Origin: SAR86 cluster bacterium
GTDB lineage: Bacteria; Pseudomonadota; Gammaproteobacteria; Pseudomonadales; Azotimanducaceae
Assembly (NCBI GenBank): GCA_013204195.1
Contig: JABMOJ010000425.1
Coordinates: 1-10,986 of the forward strand
DNA length: 10,986 nt
Direction of reading: 5' to 3'
Shown: positions 1,700 to 10,073 of the stretch, in pieces
Layout: each line of letters opens with the position of its first letter
How positions within the stretch are numbered: position 1 is the stretch's first letter
Made by a program: the position numbers and the translations under genes
The notes under the pieces: generated by a model
What the model saw: the letters and a program-made list of their open reading frames with translations, nothing else
Database searches by the model: none
What the model was told of the DNA's origin: nothing

Positions 1700-3151
1700 A
1701 TGGGTAAACCAACTGGATTTAAGGAAATTGCACGCCTGGTAGAGCCGTACCGGGACCCTGCGGTGCGCATGGTGGATTTTAAAGAAATCTATACCCACCA
1801 CGACCCCAAGCACCTTCAGGAACAGGGCTCACGCTGCATGGACTGTGGCGTGCCGTTCTGCCAGTCTACCAATGGCTGCCCGATCCATAATTTGATTCCT
1901 GAGTGGAATGATCTGGTTTACCACGGTCGCTGGCGTGATGCCTTAGACCGGTTGCATAAGACCAATAATTTTCCGGAGTTCACCGGCCGAGTTTGTCCCG
2001 CACCCTGCGAAGGTGCCTGTGTGTTAGGCATCACGGATCCGGCGGTCACCATCAAAAACATCGAAGCCGCCATTATTGACCGTGGCTTTGACGAAGGCTG
2101 GGTTGTACCGGTGCCGCCTGTCACTCGAACCGGCAAGTCGGTTGCCGTCATTGGCTCCGGTCCCGCTGGGCTCTCTGCTGCAGCCCAACTCAATAGTGCC
2201 GGACACACTGTCAGCGTCTATGAACGCGCCGATCGCCTCGGTGGTTTACTCATGTACGGCATTCCAAACATGAAACTCGACAAGGCGATCATCGAACGGC
2301 GGATTCAACTGCTTCGCGACGAGGGTATCGTTTTCTTCGTTAACGCCGACGTCGGTGGCCAGGGTAGTCATGGCATTGCCGTGCAAAGCCTTATTGCTGA
2401 TAACGATGCCGTGCTACTGGCTACCGGTGCCAGCCTCGCCAGGGACTTGAATATCCCAGGCAGAGAAGGCCCTGGCGTACACTTGGCCATGGAATTTCTC
2501 ACTGCCAACACCAAGAGCTTCCTGGATTCCGATCACGCCGACGGCCAGTTCATCTCCGCCAAGGGCAAAGACGTCATCGTCATCGGTGGCGGCGATACGG
2601 GCACCGACTGCATCGGCACATCCTTACGCCATGGCTGCAAATCGCTAGTGAACTTCGAGCTGCTACCTCGTCCACCTGCCGAACGTGCCGCAAACAATCC
2701 TTGGCCACTGTGGCCACGGATTCATCGCACTGACTATGGCCATACAGAAGCCGCAGAGAAATTCGGCGATGATCCCAGGGTCTATCAAATCGCGAGTAAA
2801 TCATTTGTTCGAGACGATGCTGGTCAATTGACAGGCATCATTACGATTAATGTGGATGAACAATTACAAGAAATCCCAGGCACGGAAAAGACCTGGCCTG
2901 CCGACTTAATCTTTCTGTCTATGGGCTTTCTGCAACCTGAACATTACATCAATGACGAGTTGGACATGGAGGTTGATGGGCGCGGGAATTTTGTTGCCAA
3001 CAAAAGCGACTACCGAACTTCTGTACCTAAGGTCTATGCCGCCGCCGACTGTCGGCGCGGCCAGGATCTAGTGGTTCGTGCAATTAACGAAGGCCGCGAG
3101 GCGGCACGAGAGATAGACCGTGATTTGATGGGAAATACCCAACTACCGTGA
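1700..3151 (+). CDS. gltD: Glutamate synthase [NADPH] small subunit
   Basis: This complete gene encodes 483 residues, normal for GltD. It oxidises NADPH and passes electrons through FAD and iron-sulfur clusters to the FMN of GltB. The N-terminal ferredoxin-like domain has two cysteine groups: C46, C49, C54, C60 ([10 protein letters not shown]...GC) and C99, C103, C107 (CPAPCEGAC), suited to two [4Fe-4S] clusters. The FAD-binding Rossmann motif [14 protein letters not shown] is at 148-161. The NADPH-binding motif [13 protein letters not shown] is at about 292-304. The closing FAD motif [18 protein letters not shown] is at about 445-462. The start follows a purine-rich AAGAGA about 8 nt upstream. 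The cluster motif is of the CMDCGVPFC type, which as I recall differs from the E. coli GltD version. Its 3' end faces aroB across a 65-nt junction with a hairpin. Standalone GltD-like oxidoreductases exist, but the adjacent gltB makes the GOGAT subunit the clear choice. Confidence 0.97.
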
Positions 3152-3188
3152 TTCAGCACCTTAGCCGCGTCTGAACCCATTGACGCGC

Positions 3189-3217
3189 GCTGCCTGCAGC
3201 CAAAGGTTGCAGGCAGC
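3189..3217. terminator. Hairpin between convergent gltD and aroB, possible bidirectional terminator
   Basis: The arms GCTGCCTGCAGCC (3189-3201) and GGTTGCAGGCAGC (3205-3217) pair over 13 bp with a single G-T wobble in the plus-strand transcript, around an AAA loop. It lies 37 nt after the gltD stop, and its last base is also the last base of the aroB stop codon, so it could end transcription from both sides. Neither flank has a T-rich run, so it does not meet the usual intrinsic-terminator pattern. It could instead protect mRNA 3' ends or mark Rho-dependent termination. Confidence 0.5.
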
Positions 3218-4320
3218 TAACCGTTGATAATCGCTAGCAGATCCTTCGCGTCGACGTCGTCCACCAATATCGCTTGACCCAACCCGCTTAAAAGCACCAG
3301 CCTTAAACCCTGATCAGTCATCTTCTTATCCCGGTTCATCAGGGACAAAAATTGATCCTTCAACACCGCCGGCGGTACCACGGGTAAACCGACCCGCGCG
3401 ATGAGCGCCTCAAGGCGCTCATTGTCAGCCGCGGAACACAACCCCAGCCGAGCAGAAAGTGCCGTCGCCATCACCATCCCTGCGCCAACGGCCTCACCAT
3501 GCAGCCAGGCACCATAGCCCATGCCGGTTTCAATGGCATGCCCGAAAGTATGACCGAAATTAAGCAGCGCTCTGACGCCTTGCTCCTTCTCATCCCGCGA
3601 GACAATATCGGCTTTGATCTCGCAACTGCGCTTGATGGCCTCACTCATCAGCTCAAGATCAAGGGCTAACAGTTGATCCATATGCTGCTCTAGCCATTCA
3701 AAATACACCAGGTCTGCCAGCGCACCGTGCTTAATCACCTCGGCCATACCCGCAATCAACTCTCGCTTAGGCAAGCTCCGCAGCGATTCCGGGTCAATGA
3801 TAACCGCCTGCGGCTGATGAAAAGCACCGATCATATTCTTGCCGAGAGGATGGTTTACAGCTGTTTTTCCACCGACAGAAGAATCCACCTGAGCCAGTAG
3901 TGTCGTGGGCACTTGAATAAAAGCAACGCCACGTTGGTAACAAGCCGCGGCAAAACCGGTGATATCACCGACAACACCACCTCCGAGTGCTATCAGGGTG
4001 GTGGCACGATTATGGCGGCCCTCCAACAAACCCGTCAAAACAATGTCCAAACTCGCCAAGGTCTTGAATTGCTCACCGTCGGGTAAAACCACCACACCAA
4101 CATTCAGATCTCCCAAGGCGGCTTGCAAGCGCTCAAGGTACAAGGGGGCAATATTGGTATTCGTCACGATCAGCACCTGACGTCCATGGATATAACGACG
4201 TAGCAAAGCACCATCGTCAAGGAGGCCAGCACCGATATAAATCGAATAACTGGCGTCCCCAAGTCCGAGATTGACAACTTCCACAATAACTTCCTTCTTC
4301 TGACCTTTAGCCGACGGCAT
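3217..4320 (-). CDS. aroB: 3-dehydroquinate synthase
   Basis: The product has 367 residues, normal for AroB, and is the second enzyme of the shikimate pathway. It converts DAHP to 3-dehydroquinate in the cytoplasm, using NAD and a divalent metal. Visible motifs are the NAD-binding DGEQFKT (81-87) and [11 protein letters not shown] (113-123), TT at 139-140, VGGKTAVN with K152, KN at 161-162, and the metal ligands E194 (GMAEVIKHG), H257 ([10 protein letters not shown]) and H274 (LHGEAVGAG). A conserved DKK is at 331-333. It starts 11 nt after the aroK stop, so the two are cotranscribed. The ATG at 4320 has no obvious ribosome site. An in-frame GTG at 4284, preceded by AAGAAGGAAG, would give a 355-residue protein beginning close to the usual AroB N-terminus and may be the true start. 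Confidence 0.96.
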
Positions 4321-4331
4321 CAGCCGCCAGT

Positions 4332-4874
4332 CTATACATAGTTAATTTTAGCCAGCTTTCGAACGATGGACGTGATGATCCGTCGACTGCTGCTATCACC
4401 TACCGCTACCTTAATGTTCGCCAACTCGTTGTAGAGGGGATCGCGAAAGATTTTGAGCTCGCGCAAGACCGCCGCCGGGTTATCCGTTTGCAGCAAGGGG
4501 CGTTTTTTATCTTTGGCCGTACGCTTAATTTGCATATCTAGCGAGGTATCAAGAAAAATGACGAGCCCTCGAGAGCGCAAAAATTCTCGGTTTTCAGGTT
4601 TGAGCACAGACCCACCACCTGTGGCAATCAGCACATCGTCTAGCTGGGTGAGATCGTCCAACACCGCGGTCTCTCGCTCACGGAATCCCGGTTCGCCTTC
4701 AACATCAAATATCCAGGCGATATTCGCGCCCGCACGCCGCTCAATCTCCTGATCAGAATCAATAAACTCGAGATGCAATTGCTGGGCGAGCGCGCGCCCT
4801 ACCGTCGTCTTACCCACACCCATGGGTCCGACCAGGAAGATATTGCGCTTGGTTTTTTCATTCGACATTGGCAT
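4332..4874 (-). CDS. aroK: Shikimate kinase I
   Basis: The product has 180 residues, close to the usual size of about 170-175. It phosphorylates shikimate to shikimate-3-phosphate with ATP. The Walker A loop GPMGVGKT is at 16-23. The shikimate-binding residues D39 and D41 (FIDSD), R65 (FRERE) and the GGG at 86-88 (ATGGGSVL) are present, as are the lid arginine in KKRPLL (R125) and the adenine-side R144 ([10 protein letters not shown]). A second ATG two codons in (4868) is an equally possible start. The [11 protein letters not shown] opening matches the AroK branch rather than AroL. It is followed by aroB after 11 nt and preceded by pilQ after 93 nt, the conserved pilQ-aroK-aroB linkage of gammaproteobacteria. 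Expression is probably partly from the pil operon. Confidence 0.96.
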
Positions 4875-4923
4875 GGAGCGACTCTACCCAAGCTGGCTCG
4901 CGAACGCCAGTATTCGCAGGCCA

Positions 4924-4959
4924 GAACAAGCGGCTTAATCAAGATTAAACCGCTTGCTC
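4924..4959 (-). other. Hairpin in the pilQ-aroK gap
   Basis: On the minus strand, CAAGCGGTTTAAT (4956-4944) and ATTAAGCCGCTTG (4939-4927) pair over 13 bp with one U-G wobble around a CUUG loop, a known stable tetraloop. Two more pairs form beyond one mismatch. It begins 8 nt after the pilQ stop. In the minus-strand transcript it is a full stem; the plus-strand version has a C-A mismatch, which favours function in the pil/aro message. No U-run follows, so a partial terminator, processing site or 3'-end stabiliser fits better than a full intrinsic terminator. Confidence 0.5.
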
Positions 4960-4967
4960 GACACTCG

Positions 4968-6296
4968 TTAACGATTGGTCATGGGGTCATCGAGTAGGAT
5001 CGGCGTGATAAAAATCAATAACTCGGTCTTCGTCCGAGTACGATTAGTACTTCTGAACAAGCTACCCAGGTAAGGTATATCGCCAAGCAACGGCGTCTTG
5101 TTGATGCTGTTGGTATCCGAAGTTTTAAACACGCCACCAAGAACGATGGTATCACCGTTATTCACCAACACCTTGGTCGTTAGATTACTCGTATTAATCG
5201 GCGGCGCTCCACCACCTGCTGGCGCCGCACCCACCTCGTCCTGAGTCACATCCAGATCGAGAATAATTCGGTCGTCAGGCGTGATCTGCGGCGTCACATT
5301 CAACACTAACTCTGCAGCGATAAATGCCACTGTGGCCCCGCCGGCAGCGCCCGTATCACCACCTGCACGCTCCAGATAAGGCACCTGCTGACCCTGAGAA
5401 ATTGTTGCCGCCTGCTTGTCTGCGGTAATGACCTTCGGTCTAGCGACAACTTCACCCTCGCCGCTGACTTCAGCGGCAGATAATTCGAGATCCAGCAAAA
5501 ATTTGCTACTAAGGATGCCCAGGGCAATGGAGTTCCCCGACCCGCCGGGCAGATCAACCACCAGCGAATCAGCACTGGTCAATGCCAGGTCCGCGCCGGC
5601 CAGGGACGATCCCCTGATGGTTTCCAGCGCATCCAGATTAGAGCCTGCTTGGAGCACTGAATTATTCACCGATCCATAGCCCCCGGCTCCCCACCTAACA
5701 CCGAGATTTTTAGTAAAACTAGAGCTCGCCGTCACGATTCGGGCTTCAATCATGACCTGTCGCACCGGCACATCTAACTTCTCGAGGACGGCTCGAAAGT
5801 CGTTAATTTTGTCCGCGGTTTCAGTCAGTATAATCGAGTTGGTGCGCTCATCGACGATAACACTGCCACGGCCGGATACCACGCCAGCACCGGCACCCTC
5901 GTCGCCGCTCTTAAACAAGGCATAAATCTCACTGGCCTTGGCATATTTTACCTCGATGAATTCTGTCCGTAGGGGCGCCAACTCAGAAATTTGCTGGCGG
6001 CTTTCCAACTCGAGTTTTTCTCGAGCCGCGAGCTCGGCCGCGGGCGCCACCATCAGAACATTGCCTAACTGGCGCTTATCCAGACCTTTAGTCTTCATGA
6101 TGATATCCAACGCCTGATCCCATGGTACATTTTTTAATCGCAAGGTAATTCGCCCAGAGACCGTATCGCTCGCCACCAAATTAAGGTCCGTGAAGTCGGC
6201 AATGAGTTGCAAGACTGCTCGAATCTCGATGTCTTGAAAATTCAACGACAACTTCTCGCCACGATAGCGAAACGCCTGATCTAAGGACGACTCCAT
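4968..6296 (-). CDS. pilQ: Type IV pilus secretin PilQ, C-terminal (secretin) fragment, out of frame with the N-terminal half
   Basis: The coordinates run from the first ATG in this frame and give 442 residues. Homology continues upstream in the same frame to about 6367 (DYLAYQADNVFTLEVKPLT), so the ATG is not the natural start and has no ribosome site. The order of domains is: a short STN/N0 domain (about residues 15-85, LNFQDIEIRAVLQLIADFT...GRITLRLKNVPWDQALDII), an N1/NolW domain (about 110-185, FIEVKYAKASEIYALF...VDERTNSIILTE), then the secretin pore domain (about 190-435) with VARPKVITADKQAATISQG, LVLNVTPQITPD, and the terminal TPLLGDIPYLGSLFRS and ELLIFITPILL. In the family, 12-15 copies form the outer-membrane channel through which the pilus extends. 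Made alone, this piece would lack a signal peptide and could not be exported. Joined to the upstream half with one base removed it gives a normal PilQ of 722 residues. Confidence 0.93.
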   Translation of the reverse strand: MESSLDQAFRYRGEKLSLNFQDIEIRAVLQLIADFTDLNLVASDTVSGRITLRLKNVPWDQALDIIMKTKGLDKRQLGNVLMVAPAAELAAREKLELESRQQISELAPLRTEFIEVKYAKASEIYALFKSGDEGAGAGVVSGRGSVIVDERTNSIILTETADKINDFRAVLEKLDVPVRQVMIEARIVTASSSFTKNLGVRWGAGGYGSVNNSVLQAGSNLDALETIRGSSLAGADLALTSADSLVVDLPGGSGNSIALGILSSKFLLDLELSAAEVSGEGEVVARPKVITADKQAATISQGQQVPYLERAGGDTGAAGGATVAFIAAELVLNVTPQITPDDRIILDLDVTQDEVGAAPAGGGAPPINTSNLTTKVLVNNGDTIVLGGVFKTSDTNSINKTPLLGDIPYLGSLFRSTNRTRTKTELLIFITPILLDDPMTNR

Positions 6297-6360
6297 CGCT
6301 GAGGCAGTCAGAGGCTTAACCTCCAGCGTGAAAACATTGTCGGCCTGATAGGCGAGGTAA

Positions 6361-6374
6361 TCAAAGTCCCCCCG
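6361..6374 (-). other. Frameshift site in pilQ: G6 run followed by CTT TGA
   Basis: Minus-strand codons read ACG GGG GGA CTT TGA, so the N-terminal frame stops here. The secretin frame reads GAC TTT GAT TAC over the same bases, one nucleotide ahead (+1). Reducing the run from six G (C6 at 6368-6373) to five gives P-T-G-D-F-D-Y-L-A-Y-Q, a normal PilQ sequence. The simplest reading is a one-base insertion in a homopolymer, real or from sequencing. The local G-run plus CTT TGA also resembles the prfB +1 recoding signal. Confidence 0.9.
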
Positions 6375-7137
6375 TCGGCTCGATCATCAGGATCGTATTG
6401 TTTGACTCTGGCAAGGCATCGACTATCAGCACAGGGGTCGCAAAATCTGCCACATCCAGCCGGCGTTGTAGATCAGCGGGGATTTGCGTAGCGGTGAATT
6501 CGACTCGAATTTTCCCACCTTCGCTGGAAACATCCACGCCAATACCGGGATTGGATAAGTTAACAATTACACGACCCTCGCCACCTTCGCCGCGTCTGAA
6601 ATCGATCGCCTCGATTCGAGAACCTGCCGAGGGAGCGCTCTGCGTTTGCTGATTCAAGCCCCGTGAAGCCTGCTGCGTCGGCGCCAGACTCACCTGCGCC
6701 TGATTGTCCAACTGACCCACTAGAAGCACCAGCGTATCGCCGTCAACTCGGGTTGAGTAGGGCATAAGCTCTGTCATCGCAACAATAACTCGCGTCCGGT
6801 TGCCGGCGTCAACGACAGTGACACTGCGAGCGTTCCCACCGCCTAGCTGATGATATTTTGAAGCCAAGCCACTGCTGACTCCCGTTAGATCCAGGGCAAT
6901 TCTGGCAGGCTGCTCAATCGTGTAGCCAGTGGGCGCTGGCGGCATCCCGTCAAAATGCATACGGATCTCAATTTTATCACCCGGCAACGACGAAAATTCA
7001 ATGCCATCCATACTCACAGCTGCCAACGCCGCGGACGGGATGAGCGCCACCACTAATAGCAATAGACTCGCCAGCATGTTTTTCCCTACCTGTCTGTGAA
7101 TGATCGCAATCACTCCTGTCACTCTTGTGACTGCCAT
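6361..7137 (-). CDS. pilQ: Type IV pilus secretin PilQ, N-terminal (AMIN-domain) fragment ended by a frameshift
   Basis: This frame gives 258 residues before TGA at 6363-6361. The ATG at 7137 is chosen because AGAGGTG (7148-7142) sits just upstream and because it lies 22 nt after the pilP stop. A signal peptide spans about residues 1-39: a basic N-region, LASLLLLVVALIP, and cleavage after ALA. Two AMIN-type beta domains follow, at about 43-120 (GIEFSSLPGDKIEIRMHFDG...RIALDLTGV) and 155-240 (IEAIDFRRGEGGEGRVIVNL...RVEFTATQIP). In PilQ these bind peptidoglycan and place the secretin in the periplasm. The fragment stops at ...MIEPTGGL, exactly where other PilQ proteins continue with a YLAYQ segment. 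A secreted AMIN-only protein would not form a channel. An upstream in-frame ATG at 7269 overlaps pilP and is unlikely to be the start. Confidence 0.9.
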   Translation of the reverse strand: MAVTRVTGVIAIIHRQVGKNMLASLLLLVVALIPSAALAAVSMDGIEFSSLPGDKIEIRMHFDGMPPAPTGYTIEQPARIALDLTGVSSGLASKYHQLGGGNARSVTVVDAGNRTRVIVAMTELMPYSTRVDGDTLVLLVGQLDNQAQVSLAPTQQASRGLNQQTQSAPSAGSRIEAIDFRRGEGGEGRVIVNLSNPGIGVDVSSEGGKIRVEFTATQIPADLQRRLDVADFATPVLIVDALPESNNTILMIEPTGGL

Positions 7138-7159
7138 AAAACACCTCTGAAAGTAGTAT

Positions 7160-7765
7160 TTAATCACTGAGACCTTGCAGTTCAATTGTTCTGGGCCGGC
7201 GCAGCCAGCCACCAGAGCCATCACTGACAATCTCGGTAATATCGATACGACTGTCATTAATGCCTTCAACCCGCCCCCAGCTGGAGCCTAGATAGTCGCC
7301 GACCTGAACCCGATGAACACCTTGATCACCATCTTCAACTAGCGCCCAGGAACTGCCATCTTGCTCGAGGGTACCCACCATCGATAATGCCGACAGGTTA
7401 TACTTCTCTAGATACTGCTTAACATGATCCGGGGGTGGCTTAATGCCGACATTGCGCTTCTGCTCTTCGCTTTTCTGCACAACGATGATTGGTGGCTCAA
7501 ATGGGCTGCGGCGGTTGGCCGCGCTATAGCTGAAGGCCTGATAAGACTCGAATTCAGGTAACGGCGCGATGCTGCCGACAGGCTGAGCTTTTACGCTCTC
7601 CATAAACGCCGTGATATCCGCATACTCGTCGTCGGAGGAACATGCCGCGAGCAACAAAACCAACAAGACTGATCCGCCGAATCGAAAAGTCATATTCAGC
7701 AGGCGGTGCACGCCGCGCTCCATGGCTGCCTCTGACGGGCTCCGCTTATTCATTAAGGGCCTCAT
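7160..7765 (-). CDS. pilP: Type IV pilus inner-membrane/periplasmic lipoprotein PilP
   Basis: From the ATG at 7765 the product has 201 residues. PilP links the inner-membrane PilN-PilO complex to the secretin PilQ. The lipoprotein signal is clear: hydrophobic VLLVLLL, then a lipobox LAAC with the modified cysteine at residue 42, followed by S. The next part is a low-complexity periplasmic linker (SSDDEYADITAFMESVKAQP) with ANRRSPFEPP, and a C-terminal beta domain (SMVGTLEQDGSSWALVEDGDQGVHRVQVGDYLG) that contacts PilQ in the family. The chosen ATG overlaps the pilO stop as ATGA, which suggests translational coupling. ATGs at 7753 (after GAGG) and 7723 (after AGAGG) are plausible alternatives, and the latter (187 residues) gives a signal peptide of more usual length. 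pilQ follows after 22 nt. Confidence 0.95.
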   Translation of the reverse strand: MRPLMNKRSPSEAAMERGVHRLLNMTFRFGGSVLLVLLLAACSSDDEYADITAFMESVKAQPVGSIAPLPEFESYQAFSYSAANRRSPFEPPIIVVQKSEEQKRNVGIKPPPDHVKQYLEKYNLSALSMVGTLEQDGSSWALVEDGDQGVHRVQVGDYLGSSWGRVEGINDSRIDITEIVSDGSGGWLRRPRTIELQGLSD

Positions 7766-8400
7766 CGACGCTCATCATTATAACGATAGGTTTTCGCCAG
7801 GATATTCATCCTCAATATTCCGCCAATGTTTTCCGCGCCACGCGCACCTGCGCCTTCAGGAAGAATCGTAAAGTCGTGGAGAGTTACAATTCGCGACAAG
7901 TCCGCGACGTCGCTGACGAACGATCCCAGCTCGTGATAGCTGCCAGAGACAACTATCTGAATGGGTTTTTCAATATAGAACTCAAACTTCTTTTCTGCCT
8001 GAAGATTAATGCTGGTGAAGTTCAACCCATTTTTCAGTCCCACAAGCGTAATATCCTCAATCAAGCCGGGGATTTCTGTATCACTCGGCAGCTGCCGAAG
8101 AATCGTTTCAAAAGACAGCTCCATCTCTTTTTTCTGTTGTCGATAACCCTCGAGATGAGCCGACTCAAAATATTTCTTTTCGAAGTCAACCCGTAAGCTG
8201 ACTTCCTGTTTTTGCGTTTTTGTCAGCTCCTCCTGTAATGGGGTCACGAAAATAAAATAACCAATGGCCAGCCCTGCAACAAACGCGAGCATCCAGATGA
8301 TCGATTTAACGGCAACGGGCAAGGAACCAATATTGTTGACGTCATTCAGATCATTCAGGTCAAAACTTCGCAGACTCTCAATCGCATCTTGGATGGCCAT
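7762..8400 (-). CDS. pilO: Type IV pilus alignment complex protein PilO
   Basis: The product has 212 residues, as expected for PilO. It has a short cytoplasmic N-terminus with an LNDLNDVNN stretch, one transmembrane helix at about 31-52 (VKSIIWMLAFVAGLAIGYFIF), a charged coiled-coil segment at about 55-100, and a periplasmic ferredoxin-like domain (about 108-205: IPGLIEDITLVGLKNGLNF, PIQIVVSGSYHELGSFVSDVADLSRIVTL). In the family it forms a heterodimer with PilN and binds PilP, joining the cytoplasmic motor side to the outer-membrane secretin. Its ATG is 2 nt after the pilN stop, and its TGA overlaps the pilP ATG. No disruption is seen. Confidence 0.95.
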   Translation of the reverse strand: MAIQDAIESLRSFDLNDLNDVNNIGSLPVAVKSIIWMLAFVAGLAIGYFIFVTPLQEELTKTQKQEVSLRVDFEKKYFESAHLEGYRQQKKEMELSFETILRQLPSDTEIPGLIEDITLVGLKNGLNFTSINLQAEKKFEFYIEKPIQIVVSGSYHELGSFVSDVADLSRIVTLHDFTILPEGAGARGAENIGGILRMNILAKTYRYNDERR

Positions 8401-8402
8401 GA

Positions 8403-8969
8403 TTAATCCACCTCCGCGGCGCTTGGCGTGCTCTGCTGAACCATTAATTTAAACCGGCTCGCCTGCGGGCCATTCCGTGGATCAGCAACAATGCCGGTCA
8501 CGTTTGGCTTCTCAAACCAGTCCGATTCATCAAAGTTGCGCAGTTGACTGGAAATTCTGTTATTCGACTCAGCCACGCCGTCGATGGTAATTGACTTCTC
8601 CTGGACCGACAGACTGGTAAAGTAGACACGGTCTGCCAGACGCCGCGCCATCTCATCAAACAATCGAACGATGACCGGTCTATTACCCTGTAATTCTTGA
8701 ATCACCTTCATTCTCGCCAGCAACTCATTGCGCTTCTGCTGTAACATTCGAATCTCCTCGATGCGCTCTTCGAGGATTTTGATTTCCTTACCCAAGTAGC
8801 TGTTACGCGCCTGCTGAGTATCAATCTGGCTATGATAGAAACGGTCAACACCGAAAGTGATCGTTGCCGCCAAGAGCAACACACCCGCTAATATTTTCAA
8901 AAATTCTTGTTTGCGTTCCTCGCGCAGCTCTTCGCGCCAAGGCAGCAGGTTAATTTTAATATCAGCCAT
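8403..8969 (-). CDS. pilN: Type IV pilus alignment complex protein PilN
   Basis: The product has 188 residues. The cytoplasmic N-terminus carries the conserved INLLPWRE segment (residues 6-13), which in known PilN proteins inserts into a groove of PilM. A single transmembrane helix follows at about 23-42 (FLKILAGVLLLAATITFGVD), then a coiled coil at about 50-90 rich in E, R and Q (KEIKILEERIEEIRMLQQKR), then a periplasmic domain (RPVIVRLFDEMARRLADRVYFTSLSVQEKSITIDG, split around position 100) of the ferredoxin-like type shared with PilO. It starts 33 nt after the pilM stop and ends 2 nt before pilO. The whole product agrees with the family in length and architecture. Confidence 0.95.
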   Translation of the reverse strand: MADIKINLLPWREELREERKQEFLKILAGVLLLAATITFGVDRFYHSQIDTQQARNSYLGKEIKILEERIEEIRMLQQKRNELLARMKVIQELQGNRPVIVRLFDEMARRLADRVYFTSLSVQEKSITIDGVAESNNRISSQLRNFDESDWFEKPNVTGIVADPRNGPQASRFKLMVQQSTPSAAEVD

Positions 8970-9002
8970 CCTGTCGCGGCCTCCGAGCTTGAGTCAGCAC
9001 CA

Positions 9003-10073
<1,071 letters not shown>

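Follow-up and report, generated by a model that had tools for sequence, protein, structure and literature searches.

A one-base frame break in pilQ of an uncultured gammaproteobacterium: probable consensus error or very recent mutation

The gene for the type IV pilus secretin, pilQ, is split into two reading frames at a run of six G residues in the draft genome of an uncultured gammaproteobacterium. Our preferred explanation, at a probability of about 0.55, is that a lone one-base error in the consensus of a fragmented draft accounts for the split and that the organism most likely has an intact pilQ and an ordinary type IV pilus secretin. The assembly would have added one base at the G-run, so that the pilQ frame is only apparently cut, and the cell's own pilQ would be whole and would yield an ordinary secretin; we infer that the cell's DNA lacks the extra base. 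If the split is an error, a divided pilQ in one MAG should not count as evidence for an organism without pili. Absence of pili follows only if the lesion is real, and the case would then be a further example of a pilus secretin lost recently. There is nothing novel in either outcome as presented here.

The window (the whole stretch of 10,986 nucleotides that was analyzed) is contig C389 of the MAG (G000), which comprises 3.16 Mb in 593 contigs and is 86.68% complete. Among 80 loci listed, the nearest named genomes are uncultured Pseudomonadales/Gammaproteobacteria MAGs, with UBA4475 first (97% over query PilQ residues 181-442), followed by DC_out240, K189A-clade, and OM182-clade MAGs (65-67%). 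The minus strand carries aroB, aroK, pilQ, pilP, pilO, pilN, and pilM, in that order, of which pilM to pilQ were named via Pfam and aroB and aroK are presumed from the sequence. The plus strand carries what we take to be part of gltB, gltD, and, later, the start of a penicillin-binding-protein-like ORF. The gene layout around pilQ is ordinary (Table 1), and the initial claim that pilMNOP is intact held, as all four genes are open frames with Pfam matches. T2SSE-family ATPase matches number six in G000 (two of them partial) and five each in the same-genus genomes G003, G004, and G005. No second PilQ was found in G000, where the sole other match had 30% identity over 197 residues of a 737-residue frame.

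Table 1. Features of the pil region in the window
Feature	Position	Strand	Remarks
Upstream pilQ piece (AMIN half)	6361..7137	-	ATG 7137, end TGA 6363-6361; ORF; Pfam AMIN 2.9e-19
Downstream pilQ piece (secretin half)	4968..6371	-	+1 frame, first ATG 6296-6294; ORF, tblastn, Pfam
Six-G run at frame break	6368..6373	-	C6 on the plus strand; one base more than aligned G003
CTT TGA, leucine codon and premature stop	6361..6366	-	Coincidental slippery-stop hexamer of RF2 genes
pilP, open frame	7160..7765	-	Pfam PilP 1.2e-46
pilO, open frame	7762..8400	-	Pfam PilO 4.9e-48
pilN, open frame	8403..8969	-	Pfam PilN 1.8e-20
pilM, open frame	9003..10070	-	Pfam PilM_2 1.6e-134

The minus strand reads GAG CCG ACG GGG GGA CTT TGA TTAC at the break. 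The first-pass annotation had described a pilQ split here, with the secretin half continuing in the +1 frame, and ORFs, tblastn, and Pfam all confirm this; the stop at CTT TGA is also as described but does not lie directly after the G-run, from which one A separates it. Two tblastn matches of the intact PilQ of G003 to the window, in different frames, abut at 6370/6371 and have identities of 89.1% (AMIN half, residues 1-256) and 96.8% (secretin half, residues 256-722). The upstream ORF matches Pfam AMIN and the downstream ORF matches N0, STN, Secretin_N, and Secretin. Position 7137 aligns with residue 1 of the catalogue protein P0001, and the upstream ORF could be extended to a TTG at 7269. 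The predicted length of 722 residues for the rejoined protein agrees with the 722 residues of both the G003 PilQ (L113:3845-6010) and P0001. Chance overlap of two separate genes does not explain the break, as the two pieces are parts of a single conserved gene. From its first ATG the secretin half begins MESSLDQAFRYRGEK, and no export signal or signal peptide was evident by eye in this half when restarted at ATG 6296. Viral contigs, when scanned with the flank of the site, gave no match.

All five same-genus genomes (G001 to G005) are in frame at the site and have no six-G run. The sequence is ACG GGC GAC TTT GAT in G003 and G004 and ACG GGT GAC TAT GAC in G005, and G001 and G002 (L087 and L086) are likewise in frame. 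A wider survey took in 113 sequences (112 loci and the window), of which 111 matched; because several loci are copies of one genome, sites were counted by distinct sequence, giving 98 distinct 81-base sites. A stop at the site occurs in the window alone, the other 97 sites being those of relatives. The unmatched loci (L013 and L092) are contigs starting inside the gene, and L051 and L111 matched but have no AMIN-like sequence at the site. In L051 (Candidatus Sedimenticola endophacoides), the AMIN side is replaced by a stretch with an inverted repeat across the AMIN-secretin junction, representing either a rearrangement or an assembly fold-back. The first-pass annotation had called for a comparison with sister genomes: the frame is intact in five of them, but the three nearest have GGC or GGT rather than a five-G run, so that they do not prove an error in this strain. 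Alignment of the window with G003 (10,006 bases, 87.6% identity) contains ten gaps; those within pilQ are the break itself and a compensating pair at 6636/6639, and the remaining seven are intergenic (1661, 3166, 7152, 10111, 10123, 10212, and 10219). The PilQ of G004 is spread over two contigs, whose pieces are 99.5% and 100% identical to P0001 (722 residues, a 51-member cluster), compared with 96.3% for G003; P0001 is, judged by these identities, the PilQ of the species of G004.

The quality of the assembly was assessed by comparing the window, 60 other G000 contigs, and one partial locus (317.6 kb) with G003 (600.7 kb) and G004 (65.2 kb), genes being defined as non-overlapping ORFs of at least 100 residues with a match of at least 65% identity. 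Close matches in G000 were obtained for 88 G003 genes (81.8 kb of G000 coding sequence), and two of these are frame-broken there, pilQ and a gene that we take to be clpB, where 88 is an upper figure because a few counted frames are probably spurious. Among 49 G004 genes matched in G000, pilQ alone is broken. In the reverse direction, 82 G000 genes placed on G003 gave two flags, namely, the over-extended start of the upstream pilQ ORF and one 33-residue N-terminal piece, and G004 genes on G003 gave one flag in 55. The homology-based break count is 2/88 for G000 versus 0-2/82 for its sister. The second break, likewise isolated and in a conserved gene of this MAG, removes one base from presumed clpB about 25 residues short of its end (L165 at about 1095-1113, on G000:C31, against L136). 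clpB is a chaperone gene of a kind that bacteria seldom lose.

Two further comparisons bear on assembly quality. Homopolymers of six or more bases number 54 in the compared G000 coding sequence (81.8 kb), 11 of them of G or C, and the pilQ run alone coincides with a frame break; systematic homopolymer error was therefore not seen in this sample. A reference-free scan with a hexamer model listed frame-break pairs that have no ATG nearby, 17 of them in G000 (317.6 kb) and 24 in G003 (524.9 kb); a GTG or TTG lies close to the junction in 13 of the G000 pairs and 16 of the G003 pairs. This left four (the window included) and eight, respectively, in the same lengths of sequence, all except that of the window being candidates only. 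These unvetted candidates give no indication that G000 is worse than G003, and the rate estimate rests instead on the homology comparison. In-frame stops were flagged in 13 cases, near frame ends or in frames that are short, match weakly, or are probably spurious, and were left out of the break count; a possible exception is a change from W to stop at residue 27 of 400 (L116:11799-12998, against L215 of G003).

Both halves of pilQ have been under full selection to date. Between G000 and G003, the secretin half (464 codons) has a dN/dS of 0.024 and the AMIN half (254 codons) one of 0.104, both inside the range of the intact pilP (0.136), pilO (0.067), pilN (0.043), and pilM (0.015) genes. For the same halves, the corresponding values in the intact pair G003-G004 are 0.032 (183 codons) and 0.147 (254 codons). 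Non-synonymous changes to G005 amount to 62.7 for G000 versus 65.7 for G003 in the secretin half and to 84.0 for each in the AMIN half. Neither relaxed selection nor further lesions were found in G000 pilQ, both halves being under strong purifying selection, a result that does not fit an old or established pseudogene. With full selection and no excess of amino acid changes, any pilQ lesion must be very recent; by rough reckoning, neutral evolution over more than a few percent of the branch would have left a trace. Synonymous divergence between G000 and G003 is ∼0.35 to 0.40 for gltD, aroB, and aroK and 0.56 to 0.86 for pilQ, pilP, pilO, pilN, and pilM (window 1700-10070), and that between G003 and G004 is 0.25 to 0.42 in the pil genes. 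Recombination may have replaced the pil operon, either in this strain or in the G003/G004 lineage, with a boundary at aroK/pilQ.

Three lines of evidence favor a consensus error. First, the draft is fragmented. Second, the same MAG contains the isolated break near the end of clpB. Third, pilQ is under full selection. The in-frame sequences of all five same-genus genomes, the restriction of the stop to the window among 98 sites, and the lack of a near-identical truncated AMIN half among the best 120 of 225 catalogue matches also point to an error, against which stand the otherwise sound homopolymers and the finding that G000 was not shown to be worse than G003. The initial ranking, which placed assembly error first, therefore stands, although not by far, and without the homopolymer-error pattern on which it drew. 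The GeneTack study states the authors' expectation that BLASTp-validated singletons are sequencing errors rather than genuine indels (PMC3711429).

A genuine, very recent frameshift is the strongest alternative, and we regard it as a serious but less probable one. A synonymous change would have made the G-run, replication slippage would have added a base, and the pilus secretin would have been lost; the AMIN piece could be exported and would form no pore, and the secretin piece has no evident signal peptide. The GGC or GGT of relatives in place of the G-run makes this path plausible, and there is no sign of an assembly generally worse than that of G003 or of miscounted homopolymers. The two breaks in 88 genes could both be real young pseudogenes. 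Further, PMC13170266 describes phage-resistance mutants of P. aeruginosa that include a truncating (nonsense) pilQ mutation. Nevertheless, the lack of a second lesion or of relaxed selection leaves room only for a very young mutation; pilM to pilP are open and T2SSE-family ATPases are present, and the similar isolated break at the clpB end hints at a technical cause.

Breaks in PilQ elsewhere in the family lend the mutation some further plausibility. PilQ was matched in 95 of 140 genomes at E 1e-90, and the places read were 10 matched ones plus that of G025, with 15 further matches with open frames of <600 residues left out. Frame breaks lie near residue 485 in L274 (G085; about 2957-2991) and near residue 662 in L275 (G112; about 3012). 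The PilQ of G127 is cut by a contig end, that of G108 is whole, and that of G025 (L267) is matched only from residue 336 onward, within an open frame that extends further and has ambiguous bases in its secretin part. The AMIN part of P0001 or P0041 had no match in the 1.6 to 2.2 kb upstream in L276, L277, L279, L280, L281, and L272. As this includes the single-contig genomes G103 (L277) and G140 (L280), AMIN-less PilQ (open frames of 475 to 546 residues) seems to be natural in some genera of the family. In G029 (L111 and L279) the PilQ frame starts with a stretch that, by eye, resembles a signal peptide; the secretin half in the window has no such start and so would not pass as an AMIN-less PilQ.

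In the protein catalogue, at least 8000 candidates were scored for the secretin half, and the best among the best 120 listed was P0001 (97%); the AMIN half matched 225 proteins, with P0121 (88%, 376 residues) the best among the 120 listed. No near-identical truncated AMIN protein was present among the best 120 of these 225 matches, and since the AMIN identity is 88% and the P0001 cluster was made at 90%, a truncated copy should not be hidden in that cluster. The window's own protein is absent among the matches listed for either half, and the catalogue may not include this strain. Divergent tails of at least 10 residues occur in 38 of 120 PilQ fragments listed and look by eye like frameshifted PilQ; their ends are spread along the whole protein, with 3 of the 38 in the bin that holds this site (240-259), fragment lengths also being limited by the search's own length rule. 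A break hot spot was considered because P0210 and P0217 diverge near residues 252-253 and was rejected, given this spread. P0135, from a 220-kb contig, is a 175-residue PilQ start that shares 98.5% identity with P0001 up to residue 137 and diverges beyond it; it probably represents a further frame break of PilQ in the genus, elsewhere in the gene.

Slipped-strand phase variation, in which the G-run lengthens and shortens and pili are switched on and off, is very unlikely. The first-pass annotation had raised such a switch, and the run does lie within a gene for a surface structure, but the suggestion is unsupported: the run has only six bases, whereas the setting used by GeneTack requires at least 7 for homopolymer repeats (PMC3711429), relatives read at the same place have no six-G run, and the other PilQ breaks lie at other places. 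A limited search by title found no literature on pilQ phase variation via a G-run.

Still less credible is recoding of the kind used by the RF2 gene prfB, in which ribosomes would slip at CTT TGA while the G-run pairs with the anti-Shine-Dalgarno sequence, so that some full-length PilQ is made. The pilQ site (GGGGGG A CTT TGA T) places CTT TGA directly ahead of the correct new frame with the G-run just upstream, and the prfB genes of G003, G004, and G006 (L218, L219, and L220) use the canonical +1 site AGGGGG TAC/TAT CTT TGA C; no prfB above the cutoff was found in G000 or G005, both of which are incomplete. The two sites share the CTT TGA slippery stop, the G-rich stretch upstream, and the +1 direction. 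A prfB survey reports CTTT 3 nt downstream of a Shine-Dalgarno-like stretch, strong conservation of the C that follows the stop, and lower frameshifting when any element is altered (PMC12421855). In contrast, the spacer in pilQ is 1 nt (or 2 nt, should pairing involve just the first five Gs), the stop is followed by U (UGAU rather than UGAC), and the arrangement is unique to the window among the 98 distinct sites. Five of the 97 relative sites, including those of the intact G003 and G004, have an out-of-frame CTTTGA at this position; as the hexamer is part of the D-F-D codons and becomes exposed when one base is gained upstream, the likeness to RF2 needs no selection. The RNA fold around the site is no better than that of shuffled sequences (z = 0.40). 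A real run with an accidental RF2-like site that yields low, release-factor-2-dependent PilQ, i.e., a pilus-gene indel corrected in translation, is similarly improbable; corrective frameshifting is discussed in PMC5009743. If the lesion is real, the chance likeness would provide a simple test of accidental slippery-stop rescue of a broken gene.

The consensus error that we favor has its closest counterpart in the singleton frameshift genes described in the GeneTack study, which are likewise isolated, supported by homologues, and without a conserved site, although that set was drawn from complete genomes and the pilQ case from a MAG (PMC3711429). The product itself resembles the PilQ secretin of type IVa pili, with AMIN, N0, STN, Secretin_N, and Secretin domains in order, beside pilMNOP; the difference is that in this assembly the five domains are coded in two frames.
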